This document shows positions 58,364 to 62,431 of a DNA stretch of 64,000 bases, piece after piece; position 1 is the first letter of the stretch, and each line of letters starts with the position of its first letter. The DNA is taken from assembly GCF_022370835.2 (NCBI RefSeq), contig NZ_CP092365.1, forward strand, positions 1,612,001 to 1,676,000, read 5' to 3'. This DNA is from Mycolicibacillus parakoreensis (lineage in GTDB: Bacteria; Actinomycetota; Actinomycetes; Mycobacteriales; Mycobacteriaceae). The translations under genes were made by a program, and so were the position numbers. Below the pieces are notes generated by a model. The model was not told where the DNA came from, did no database searches, and was given only the letters and a program-made list of their open reading frames with translations.

Positions 58364-59239
58364 ATGACCACGACGCCATCGCCTGGGTCCGGTCGGCACC
58401 TCCCGATCAGGGCTCGGCGCGTGAAGTTCACGTTCCCCAGCGGAGCCCGCCACCACCATTTCGTCGACAACGATCTGGTGATGAGCCACTTCGTCGCGGT
58501 GCTCTCGTCGGTGTTCCCCGAGGGGGAGGACTTCTTCATCCGGTCGGTGCGCAACTACAGCGACCAGATCACCGACCCGCAGCTGCAGCAGGACATCAAG
58601 GGGTTCATCGGGCAGGAATCCAGCCACAAAAGCCAGCACCGCATGCTCAACGAACGCCTGCAGGCGATGGGATATCCCACCGCCAAGATCGACCGCCACG
58701 TCAAGCGCCGGCTCAGCCGCGCGGAGCGCGTCTACTCCACCGAGATGCGGCTGGCGGCCACCGCCGCGCTGGAGCACTACACGGCGACCTTCGCCGAGAT
58801 TCTGCTGAACGACGACGATCTGCTCTCGCTGCTGGACGGATCCGACGTCCGGTCGATCCTGCTGTGGCACGCGTTCGAGGAGGCCGAGCACAAGGCGGTG
58901 GCGTTCGACGTGTACCAAGCGGTCGGCGGAAGCGAACGCAACCGGGTGCGCGCCATGCGGATCGCGACGACCATCTTCATCATCGAAATGGTTCTGCAGA
59001 CGACCCGTTCGCTGCTGCGCGATCCGGCGACCTACAACCCGGTGCGGCTGCTGCGCAGCCTCAACAAGTTCCGCAAGTCGCCGTTGTTCAGCCGGGACGC
59101 GTTGCGCCGCTACGCCTCCTACACCCGACCCGGATTCCACCCGAATGACTGGGACAGCACCGCGACCCTGGAGCACTGGTCTGACGAGCTGCTCGACGCC
59201 AGCGGCAGGCCGATGTACGCCGAGGCGCCCGGAGGCTAA
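58364..59239 (+). CDS. Ferritin-like metal-dependent hydrolase family protein
   Basis: A 291-residue helical protein of the family annotated as metal-dependent hydrolases (PF10118 type). Probable di-metal ligands are in FIGQESSHKSQH, ALEHYTATFAE and WHAFEEAEHKAVAFDVY. Function is not established. ATG 58364 has AGGAGAG upstream (acaggagagcacaATG). The mobile element begins immediately after its TAA stop, so the coding sequence is intact. Confidence 0.83.
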   Translation: MTTTPSPGSGRHLPIRARRVKFTFPSGARHHHFVDNDLVMSHFVAVLSSVFPEGEDFFIRSVRNYSDQITDPQLQQDIKGFIGQESSHKSQHRMLNERLQAMGYPTAKIDRHVKRRLSRAERVYSTEMRLAATAALEHYTATFAEILLNDDDLLSLLDGSDVRSILLWHAFEEAEHKAVAFDVYQAVGGSERNRVRAMRIATTIFIIEMVLQTTRSLLRDPATYNPVRLLRSLNKFRKSPLFSRDALRRYASYTRPGFHPNDWDSTATLEHWSDELLDASGRPMYAEAPGG

Positions 59240-60060
59240 GGCGTGTCGAACAACTGGGTGTGGTCGAGTTGGCGTAGCAGTAGGGGGATTTGGCTGAGGT
59301 TGAGGAAGCCCTCGTGTGCTTGGAGGGTGGTTTCGTGGTGGCGGTCGAGTCGGTGGCAGTGGTTGATCCAGCCGTTGGTGCGTTCGACGACCCAGCGGCG
59401 GGGCTGGATCTGGAGCCTGCTGGCGGGTTTCGGCCCGGACACGATCTCGAGGCTGACACCGGGGCGCTGGGCGGTTTGAGCGACTGTGACGCCGGTGTAG
59501 TCCTTGTCCAGCCAGACGTGAGCAATAGTCGGGGTGATTTTCTTTGCTTTGCGCAGCAAGGCGGGGAAGGCGGCGCGGTCCTGCACGTTCGCGGCGGTGA
59601 GGGTCGCGGCTATGAGGATGCCTGCGGTGTCAACGAGGATGTGGCGTTTTGTTGCCGTTAACCTTCTTGGCACCGTCGAATCCACGCGGTCCGGTCACCG
59701 GGGATGTTTTCGCCGGCGAGGAATCGCCCGCTGCTGCTGAGGGCGGCCGGCAGCGGCCGGTGCGGGCACGAACCTCGCCGTGCACCGCGGTGAGCACCTT
59801 GACCCAGATGCCGGCGCGGTACCAGCGCAGGAAATGCTTATGCGCCGCTGACCAGGACACGGCGAAGTCGTGGGGCAGGTGCTGCCACGCGCAGCCGGTG
59901 CGCAGTACGTACAGCACAGCATTGAGGTATTCACGTCGGCGCTGCGGCGGGCAGGGCCGCCCGCCGTGCGGATGCTCGGCAATGATGAATCGTGCGATGC
60001 GTGCCCAGGCGGTGTCGGACAGGTCGGAGGCATACCGGCGCCGGGGCGGTGCGAGGTCAC
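59236..60060 (-). pseudogene. IS5-family DDE transposase, frameshifted
   Basis: Conserved IS5 segments are present in order: RYASDLSDTAWARIARFII, REYLNAVLYVLRTGCAWQHL, GFDGAKKVNG, KRHILVDTAGILIAATLTAA, HVWLDKDYTG and WVVERTNGW. The DDE Asp (GDSSPAK), Asp (LDKDY) and Glu (VVER) can all be found. They lie in different frames. An extra A near 59647-59654 (NG-N-KTPHPR versus KRHIL) breaks the middle. A likely lost C in the 60043-60046 run separates GTG 60060 (VTSHRP) from RRRYASDL. Its stop is at 59236-59238, in flanking DNA. It is presumed inactive. Confidence 0.8.
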
Positions 60061-60144
60061 ATGACCGCCGATCCTGACGACGGCCTCTGGCACCCCGCGC
60101 CTGGTCGGCGGTGTTTGTCGGTGCCTTATGTGATGCTGCGCGTG

Positions 60145-61593
60145 ATGGCCCGGCACACGACGTTCAAGTTCTGCCTCGACCCCACCGTCGAGCAAGAAGC
60201 GGTGCTGTCCCGGCATGCCGGGGCGGCCCGGTTCGCGTTCAACCAGTGCCTGCGCATCGTCAAAACCGCACTCACCGACCGCAGGGCCGACCCGGACACC
60301 ACGGTGCCGTGGACCGGGTTCGATCTGATTGACACCGTCAACGCCTGGAAGAGGACCGAGGCTGCCGGCCGGGTGTTCACCGTCGATACCGCCGGTGACA
60401 TTGAGCTGTATGTGACGGGGCTGTCGTGGCGGACGGAGGTTTGCCAGCAGGTGTTCGAGGAAGCCGCCGTGGATCTGGGCAAAGGTTTGAAAGCGTGGTC
60501 GGACTCCCGGACGGGGAAACGCAGAGGCAAGCGGGTTGGCTTCCCACGATTCAAGAAGAAGACCACGTCGGTTCTGTCGTTGCGGGTGCGCAACAAGCAC
60601 GCCAAGGGCGGGCGGGCATCGATTCGTGTTGGCGACGGCGACCGGCCGCGGTCGCTCACCTTGCCCGGCATCGGCCAGATCGCCGTGCACGACGACACCC
60701 GCCGTCTGCGCCGTATGCTCGCTCAGGGCCGGGCCACGATTCTGTTCGCCACCGTCACCGAGCGTGCGGGCCGCTGGTGGGTGTCGCTGAACATCGAAGC
60801 CGCCGACCTGCACCCGGCATATCAGCACCCGCCCCGCGACGCCGTAGACAACGGTGATTGGGTCGGGGTAGATCGGGGACTTTCGGCGTTCGCGGTCGCT
60901 GCCACCACCAGCGGCGCCGAGATCGCCCGAATCGCCGATGCACCCAAAGCACTGGCCGCCGGCATGAGTAAGCAACGTCGGCTGGCGAAGTCGTTGTCCC
61001 GCAAACAGAAAGGATCACATAACCGCCGAGATGCCGCTGCCCGCCTGGGGCGGCATCACCGCCGTGTCGCCAATGTGCGCCGACATTTCACACACCAGGT
61101 CTGCAACCAGTTGGTCAAGACTCACGACCGGCTCGTCATCGAGAACCTGCATGTGGCCGGGATGCTGGGCAATCACCGGCTGGCCCGCGCCATCTCCGAT
61201 GCCGGCTGGGCCGAGTTCGCCCGCCAACTGCACTACAACCGCCAACTGCACTACAAACAGTCCTGGTGCGGCGGCCAGGTCATAGAGGCCGACCGCTGGT
61301 ATCCCTCAAGCCAGCTCTGCTCGGTCTGCGGTGATCGCCGCACCGACCTGAGCCTCGCCGAGCGGGTATTCACCTGCGCAAACGGTCACCGGCTGGATCG
61401 TGACCTCAACGCGGCGATCAACCTGGCCCGCTGGGGCCAAACCCATCACGACTCACACCGATCCCCGGACCCCCAAGCAGGAGGCCGGGTCACCAACGCC
61501 CGCCGACAGGACGGCTCTGACCAACACCTGCGTGTTGGTGAAACCAGCCTGAACGACGCGGGAACCAACGTTCACACCCCACCAGCGGCCTGA
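60145..61593 (+). CDS. tnpB: TnpB, RNA-guided RuvC-type nuclease of transposon origin
   Basis: A 482-residue TnpB. The RuvC triad is visible as Asp243 (VGVDRGLSAFA), Glu333 (VIENLHVAGM) and an Asp in RLDRDLNAAINL (about 418-420). The zinc finger reads CSVC at 392-395 and CANGH at 411-415, the last ligand being His instead of Cys. The N-terminus MARHTTFKFCLDPT and FPRFKKK are typical. The last 50 residues are low-conservation and probably overlap the omega RNA. No TnpA (HUH or serine recombinase) is present. ATG 60145 is chosen; 60133 and 60142 are in frame. Confidence 0.88.
   Translation: MARHTTFKFCLDPTVEQEAVLSRHAGAARFAFNQCLRIVKTALTDRRADPDTTVPWTGFDLIDTVNAWKRTEAAGRVFTVDTAGDIELYVTGLSWRTEVCQQVFEEAAVDLGKGLKAWSDSRTGKRRGKRVGFPRFKKKTTSVLSLRVRNKHAKGGRASIRVGDGDRPRSLTLPGIGQIAVHDDTRRLRRMLAQGRATILFATVTERAGRWWVSLNIEAADLHPAYQHPPRDAVDNGDWVGVDRGLSAFAVAATTSGAEIARIADAPKALAAGMSKQRRLAKSLSRKQKGSHNRRDAAARLGRHHRRVANVRRHFTHQVCNQLVKTHDRLVIENLHVAGMLGNHRLARAISDAGWAEFARQLHYNRQLHYKQSWCGGQVIEADRWYPSSQLCSVCGDRRTDLSLAERVFTCANGHRLDRDLNAAINLARWGQTHHDSHRSPDPQAGGRVTNARRQDGSDQHLRVGETSLNDAGTNVHTPPAA
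61222..61257 (+). repeat. 18-base tandem duplication inside tnpB
   Basis: CGCCAACTGCACTACAAC at 61222-61239 is followed directly by CGCCAACTGCACTACAAA. The copies differ only in the last base and insert six residues (QLHYNR) in frame between RuvC motifs II and III. Confidence 0.9.
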
Positions 61594-61651
61594 ACCGAGG
61601 AACGCCCGAGAAGGGCGGTGCCGAACACCCACCAGAGTTGTTCGACACGCT
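61500..61651 (+). ncRNA. Candidate omega (guide scaffold) RNA region at the tnpB 3' end
   Basis: In TnpB systems the guide RNA comes from the 3' end of tnpB and its downstream flank. Here that region contains a hairpin CGCCC-GAGAA-GGGCG (61603-61617) just after the stop codon and ends at the right inverted repeat. The boundaries are approximate and there is no direct evidence of an RNA. The guide, if used, would begin near 61651 in flanking DNA. Confidence 0.35.
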
Positions 61652-62431
61652 TTAAAGGGCCGGCTTGGTCGCGGTGATGATCGCCCCGTGCATGCCTTCG
61701 GCGACCTCATGGGTGAACGTGACCGAGGCGTCGGCGAAGCCGACGCGAGCCAACCCCTCGAGGTACTCCCGCCGGGACAGCGCCCCGGCGATGCAGCCCA
61801 CATGGCTGCCCCGCTCGGCACGGTCGGCGGGCGAGAGGTGGTCGTCGGCGACGACGTCGGAGATGCCGATGCGCCCGCCGGCAACGAGCACACGGAAGAT
61901 CTCGGCGAGGACAGCGGGTTTGTCCGCCGACAGGTTGACCACACAGTTGGAGATCACCACGTCGACCGCGGCGGCGGGCAGGGGGATGTCTTCGATGGTG
62001 CCCTTGCGGAATTCGACGTTGGTGACCCCGGCCTCGGTCTTGTTGGCCTCGGCCAGCGCGAGCATCTCGTCGGTCATGTCCACGCCGTAGGCGAACCCGG
62101 TCGGCCCGACGCGGCGTGCCGAGAGCAGCACGTCGAGCCCACCCCCGGAGCCCAGATCCAGGACCCGTTCGCCGGGGCGCAACTCAGCGACGGCGGTGGG
62201 ATCTCCACAGCCGAGACTGGCGGTGACGGCGTCGAGTGGCAGGTCGGCATGCACGCCGTCGGTATAGAGACCGGCGCCGAAGATCGTGCCCACGTCGACC
62301 GCATCGCTGGAGCCGCAGCAACTGGCCGCGGTCAGCACCTCGCTGTTGGTGACACCGGCACTGAGCGTGCTGGCGGCTTCCCCGTAGCGGGTGCGCACCT
62401 CGTTGCGCAGGTCGTCGGCGCTGTCACCCAT
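61652..62431 (-). CDS. arsM: Arsenite methyltransferase ArsM
   Basis: A 259-residue SAM-dependent methyltransferase that converts As(III) to methylated arsenicals. As-binding cysteines are visible: the pair in AASCCGSSD (38-39), one in [10 protein letters not shown] and one in HVGCIAGAL. The SAM motif is [17 protein letters not shown] 62431 has GGAAGGGG upstream. It is divergent from arsR with a shared operator region. Its stop lies at the right edge of the mobile element. Confidence 0.93.

Follow-up and report, generated by a model that had tools for sequence, protein, structure and literature searches.

The RNA-guided nuclease TnpB partners HUH (single-strand) and serine transposases in the literature reviewed here. 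IS200/IS605 elements are described as carrying an HUH (Y1) TnpA, without inverted repeats or target duplication (excerpts of PMC3627910), and IS607 elements as carrying a serine recombinase TnpA, again without either feature (abstract of PMC6188088). In ISDra2, TnpB binds an RNA that starts at the 3' end of tnpB, crosses the right end, and takes in about 16 nt of the DNA beyond (excerpts of PMC8612924), and IS607 TnpB is guided by a RAGATH-18-derived RNA, with AGGAG or GAGGG as the reported target-adjacent motifs (excerpts of PMC11061315). The TnpB relative Fanzor1 occurs in eukaryotic and viral DDE elements, namely Mariner, IS4-like, Sola, and MuDr (excerpts of PMC3627910). For TnpB in a bacterial DDE element, no report was found in full-text searches of the open-licence literature. 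Here, such an element is described from a stretch of 64,000 nucleotides of Mycolicibacillus parakoreensis (NZ_CP092365.1, positions 1,612,001 to 1,676,000), henceforth called the window, to whose first letter all positions refer.

The element spans 59239-61652 (flanking TA excluded, read from the sequence) and is a damaged member of a transposon family with two genes, one for an IS5-type DDE transposase and one for TnpB, between a single pair of inverted repeats. The existence of this family is regarded as practically certain; TnpB is a regular part of it and not a one-off nesting. Perfect 15-base inverted repeats (59241-59255 and 61636-61650) enclose a minus-strand transposase gene (59242-60082) and a divergent plus-strand tnpB (60145-61593). 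A sequence-only reading of the same DNA had described these repeats around a DDE transposase remnant and an intact divergent TnpB, and this was borne out by coordinates, domains, and the open frame. At up to two mismatches the repeat matches twice in the window against 0.15 expected, a number reached by one of 100 shuffles. The terminal inverted repeats, delimited by repeat search and sequence, extend over 59239-59255 (AGGCGTGTCGAACAACT, plus strand) and 61636-61652 (plus strand), and the longer inverted-repeat arm measures 19 nt with 95% complementarity. The two copies of the TA target duplication lie at 59237-59238 (site CTAA) and 61653-61654, the duplication being evidenced in a sister copy (L039, see below) and not at the window site.

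With the IS5 family, the element shares a DDE transposase that exceeds the curated cut-off in open relatives, short terminal inverted repeats, and a TA duplication; unlike that family, the window-type unit is about 2.4 kb long and has tnpB as a second, divergent gene. Within IS5, the branch is probably IS427-like. As in IS200/IS605 elements such as ISDra2 (excerpts of PMC8612924), tnpB lies near the right end, conserved RNA hairpins run to that end, and the flanking DNA would serve as guide. The element departs from the above descriptions of IS200/IS605 and IS607 in its DDE transposase, its true inverted repeats, and its target duplication; nor does it hold an HUH or serine transposase, as only about 60 nt of the element lie outside its two genes. 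Like IS607 TnpB, the window-type TnpB obtains its best score from the IS607_TnpB model (310.8 in the window, 324.1 in the relative L045), a hint that an IS607-type TnpB was captured; unlike it, both scores stay under the cut-off of 350, and the site reads CTAR rather than AGGAG or GAGGG (excerpts of PMC11061315). Also unlike in RAGATH-18-guided IS607, no Rfam family was found at the 3' end (which RAGATH-18 model Rfam holds was unchecked). Fanzor1 is similar in being related to TnpB and in having been captured by DDE transposons, of which some show inverted repeats and a target duplication (excerpts of PMC3627910), and dissimilar in that here the host is bacterial, the protein is TnpB, the transposase is of IS5 type, and a predicted guide-RNA stem coincides with an inverted repeat.

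To survey the genus, 198 congeneric genomes were searched with the whole element as query. Matches at an E-value of 0.001 or better were obtained in 66 of these, many of them short and near the limit, and included seven other full-length copies (query positions 1-2412, 73-76% identity) in six genomes besides the window's own. The own genome contributed two shortened copies that keep both ends (C1:706694-707444 and C1:2508515-2509311, 82-85% identical) and one further match of 39 bases, which is chance-like. That sister copies carry both of these ends already speaks against a single chance event, and because several copies share ends and both genes at different sites, the composite reading is favoured. 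Both genes are open in three copies (L045, L047, and L061). L045 and L047, from two genomes, are 2% apart in both halves and have different flanks; L057 and L061, on two contigs of one genome, are 2-3% apart, also with different flanks. These near-identical units at different sites show recent mobility.

The window transposase is split over two minus-strand frames (59242-59667 and 59648-60082), with the frame change at about 59648-59667 and with the Pfam domains DUF4096 and DDE_Tnp_1 in the pieces. Since the gene is one open frame in L045, L047 (with one undetermined residue), and L061, the break is read as damage, the word remnant was apt, and programmed frameshifting was rejected. L043 and L048 are likewise open in part, with some stretches out of frame. 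The open relatives P0001 and P0002 score 188.7 and 175.5 with NF033580 (transpos_IS5_3; cut-off 110), whereas the two window pieces reach 85.1 and 58.3. In the three open copies, the transposase C-terminus (QLFDTL, QLLDAL, or QLLDTL) is encoded by the left repeat, and the stop codon includes the target TA. Two group II intron matches (L061:8298-10163) were observed downstream of one open two-gene copy, the nearest about 1.7 kb off.

Transposase and tnpB have a long history of joint inheritance. Across ten full-length copies, distances between the transposase halves correlate with those between the tnpB halves (Mantel r 0.92, a value reached by none of 10,000 permutations). With an open transposase as query (E-value 1e-30 or better, up to 12 candidates scored in each genome), 15 of the 198 genomes matched, and the rows with at least 50% identity represent 20 distinct copies, among them the window copy and one of its sisters. 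Seventeen of them adjoin tnpB or its remains (in L131, only a 22-residue match), and the remaining three, L128, L139, and L135, of which the last stands at a contig end, are fragments of at most 128 of 296 residues; a complete copy of the window-type IS5 without TnpB was not found among the up to 12 candidates scored in each genome. In a class-wide transposase search, 42 of 394 genomes matched at 1e-45, and no tnpB was found beside 26 other actinobacterial IS5 loci (38-43% identical) within flanks of up to 1.5 kb per side, shorter at contig ends. In a tree of 42 transposases, including one row (L017) flagged as long and odd in composition, a branch with support of 96/77, just below the support mark, separates ten TnpB-associated rows from 31 IS5 rows that have no tnpB nearby. 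The TnpB-associated transposases group at 100/100 with L216, a 57% identical transposase from outside mycobacteria whose locus is cut at the contig end; a tnpB fragment (L245) from the same genome has no matching end.

Translated searching of reference genomes with TnpB returned 239 relatives, of which 79 loci were kept. Decay was counted in the 41 Mycobacteriaceae loci among them (L048 and the distant TnpB L115 left out): both repeats are present in 22, the right one only in 14, neither in five, and the left alone never, a pattern that is only supportive, as the loci were found via tnpB and are thus biased toward the right end. Of the same 41 loci, 30 have an open tnpB and 21 retain at least part of a transposase, which is open in four (three without a shifted stretch).

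The window TnpB carries the Pfam domains OrfB_IS605, Cas12f1-like_TNB, and HTH_OrfB_IS605 and scores 218 with NF040570 (cut-off 100). Its open frame is listed from 59992, and the likely start is at about 60145 (482 aa), since the relative L045 begins with MVMARHTTF. The frame is open and keeps the RuvC residues D, E, and D. To survey these residues more widely, 80 loci were reduced to 53 single long TnpB matches and 50 without a stop, not selected for RuvC residues; D is kept in 50 of 50, E in 50 of 50, and the third D in 48 of 50 (two not aligned). In 34 TnpBs filtered on motifs containing two RuvC residues, the fourth zinc-finger Cys is found in 29, Asn in the window, L043, L048, and L054, and Arg in L039, and the Asn looks like a shared variant. 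The ratio of nonsynonymous to synonymous substitution rates (dN/dS) of tnpB was compared in the 25 closest pairs (out of 379 under the divergence limit); it lies at 0.20-0.40 in 24 of them and at 0.55 in one, showing purifying selection. A perfect 18-nt tandem duplication within tnpB (61221-61256) adds six in-frame residues in the window and is, by eye, absent from L045; in another locus (L085:6026-7319), other DNA, about 1.3 kb in length, interrupts tnpB.

The end of tnpB is 42 nt from the right repeat, and its stop codon is 59 nt from the element end. Directly after the stop and within these 59 nt, there are two conserved hairpins: CGCCC-gagaa-GGGCG (61603-61617, plus strand), a predicted guide-RNA scaffold judged from 52 aligned 3' ends, and a terminal stem GUG.CGAA ... 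UUCG.CAC (61618-61648, plus strand), indicated by covariation, with its 3' arm within the right inverted repeat. The sequence-only reading had proposed inspecting the DNA before 61636 for IS605/IS607-type ends; no separate end of this kind is visible between tnpB and the right repeat. In the covariation alignment (52 3' ends, hand-chosen from a longer list and including TnpB-only relatives with other end sequences), six of the seven pairs of the second stem show changes on both sides. Both helices together have 46 cells changed on both sides compared with 11.5 in shuffles (0 of 500 as high), and at most 18 double-changed cells were obtained when the stem partners were slid by 1-3 columns. Searching the window 3' RNA against Rfam gave no match at the gathering score (two matches, E-values 5 and 7, far under the cut-offs), and three matches in the loci of seven relatives included none at the 3' end. 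By analogy with ISDra2 (excerpts of PMC8612924), the predicted guide would begin at the right TA (61653-61654) or in the next bases.

For the analysis of target sites, flanks were counted in 33 copies, with tnpB setting the orientation and mismatches alone deciding the left end (L018 and L054 are one site, and L091, from another genus, is a doubtful match). The left flank is TA in 29 of the 33 and CTA in 28; the right flank is TA in 32, the next base being G (22 copies), A (10), or C (one), and no strong base preference was seen further out. L039 is inserted between what we take to be coaX and lysS; when its flanks are joined through one TA, they match an uninterrupted site of other mycobacteria in eight of ten junction-crossing alignments (the query matched in 57 of 60 genomes, and 30 loci were retrieved), and hence TA is duplicated on insertion. 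No empty site was found for the window element, whose relatives are too distant, or for L099. Stop codons are the insertion point in 17 of 25 cases, compared with 38 of 88 background sites, an excess too slight to support a conclusion. In L042 and L056, from two genomes, the element occupies one and the same genomic site (flank 79%, element 77%); homing was rejected here, as flank and element have diverged about equally, indicating one old, retained insertion. L068 and L075 have related right flanks (79%) that are 45 bp out of register, with elements 65% alike, and are perhaps separate insertions near one place.

We infer transposase action on the ends, an RNA with its guide, a CTA(R) motif, cutting, and homing, in the following course. 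The transposase would excise the element at its repeats and insert it mostly at CTAR, duplicating TA. tnpB would be read out toward the right end, and RNA covering its 3' end and the right repeat would form the guide scaffold, with the adjoining host DNA as guide; the right repeat would hence double as the transposase end in DNA and as the closing stem of the scaffold in RNA. Once the element has left, the restored site, with CTA ahead of the guide match, would be recognised and cut by TnpB, and repair from the sister chromosome would put the element back, so that it persists. A C-containing motif would spare the occupied site, because there TTA from the element precedes the guide match, and CTA does so after excision. 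A repeat with this dual role would require the left repeat, the right repeat, and the inner RNA-stem arm to change together, and such joint change is seen between the mycobacterial, L076, and Catellatospora ends. The guide-and-homing mechanism taken by itself is considered probable, and the explanation as a whole, with a damaged copy of a composite family, a repeat-based guide scaffold, and TnpB homing, is held with good confidence. The chances are evenly balanced for the further proposal that the TnpB motif is the transposase target preference (CTAR), that empty sites are recut, making cut-and-paste effectively copy-making, and that the repeat is dual-role.

Several observations weigh against this explanation. 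A clean open transposase is found in only three of the 41 mycobacterial loci, and that of the window is itself broken; with the right repeat only in 14 of these loci and neither repeat in five, some TnpBs may be decaying or otherwise employed. CTA(R) is short for a TnpB motif, and the base before TA is T in the eight empty sites and C in L039; if those T sites represent the pre-insertion state, a CTA motif would not separate empty from occupied there. The asymmetry between left and right target flanks is weak (C 26 of 28, G 19 of 28, p 0.04, with two copies sharing one site and left ends partly picked by TA). Covariation can look stronger than it is when judged by shuffling related sequences, and the alignment used for this test also served to predict the structure. 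Finally, the fold of the window RNA alone is ordinary (z -1.2, with 20 of 200 shuffles as good).

That a TnpB unit dropped once into an IS5 copy in the window genome, as the sequence-only reading had offered as one option, is extremely unlikely. TnpB-only relatives in Nocardia, Catellatospora, and Promicromonospora show that tnpB can live without the IS5 transposase, and separate TnpB units of this sort answer in part to one half of what that reading had named as the mark of nesting; the other half, complete IS5 copies without TnpB, was not found among the candidates scored in the 198 genomes. The further copies with the same repeats and both genes that it had suggested looking for do exist, as full-length composites in six other genomes, at different sites and with both halves equally diverged. 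Its second option, an IS5 variant using TnpB as an accessory, is favoured by the recurrence of both genes between matching ends at different sites; TnpB would act as an accessory there. tnpB might instead have been captured once and carried passively, matching the repeat at its 3' end by chance and taking no part in spread or retention. IS5 elements transpose without TnpB, and L039, L040, and L064 have both ends and no recognisable transposase, so that either the ends suffice or the gene was lost after insertion. Such passive carriage is nevertheless improbable in view of the purifying selection on tnpB, the kept catalytic residues, the compensatory changes in the terminal stem, and the tally of 30 open tnpB frames to four open transposases in the 41 loci.

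Co-option of TnpB for host regulation or defence, with the repeats as relics in most copies, would suit the 14 loci that have tnpB and the right repeat without the left, as well as the shared site of L042 and L056. TldR regulators are nuclease-dead, however, while here the nuclease residues are kept, and the near-identical units at different sites attest recent mobility, which makes co-option a very doubtful account. The terminal stem might also be a DNA hairpin or a transcription terminator rather than a guide-RNA end, since hairpins are common at transposon ends, the stem stands close behind the stop codon, and in 62-nt folds the repeat pairs about equally at both ends (9.2 of 17 bases at the left, 10.7 at the right). 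We give this little credence: of 33 copies, 19 have an exact inner complement of at least 6 nt adjoining the right repeat and one has it adjoining the left, mean fold energy is -21.5 kcal/mol at the right end (which includes the first hairpin) compared with -10.2 kcal/mol at the left, and the covarying rows include TnpB-only relatives whose end sequences differ. Just three T follow the stem in the window, which speaks against a terminator (no terminator scan was run).

If the stable partnership of TnpB with a DDE transposase is true, RNA-guided homing would be portable between transposition chemistries within prokaryotes, as Fanzor suggests for eukaryotes. The matching of a TnpB motif to transposase target choice would then become testable, with no more than CTA(R) as the candidate motif and the guide scaffold coinciding with the transposon end.

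Beyond mycobacteria in the broad sense (Mycobacterium sensu lato), TnpB relatives were found in Nocardia, Catellatospora, Promicromonospora, and others. L076, from outside mycobacteria, has the same layout with its own repeats, and its transposase is broken too. The TnpB-only units L082 and L083 (Catellatospora) end in CTACGGCGTGTTTCATAAGT / AGTTATGAAACAGGCCGTAG, matching at 18 of 20 positions, compared with 17 of 20 in L093 (Promicromonospora) and 15 of 20 in L081; all four lie in CTAG-like sites, and their repeats are IS5-like, of another type. Searching the repeats of such units in two Catellatospora, one Promicromonospora, and four Nocardia genomes returned only the units' own ends (four and one matches), and autonomous IS5 partners were accordingly rejected for these seven genomes; no transposase domain was found in ten open reading frames near tnpB at six loci. 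The Nocardia unit L066 perhaps carries another repeat, and in L107 only an IS5-like left repeat was seen, left of tnpB. No TnpB relative was found in phages at E-values up to 1e-30, and plasmids yielded one TnpB of 46% identity at E-values up to 1e-50.

At the window site, the joined flanks (59236-59239 / 61652-61655) read CTAA, and both strands have frames open for at least 100 codons that end there; judged from these frames, the element looks as if it sits at the shared stop of two convergent genes. The gene to its right looks like an arsenite methyltransferase.

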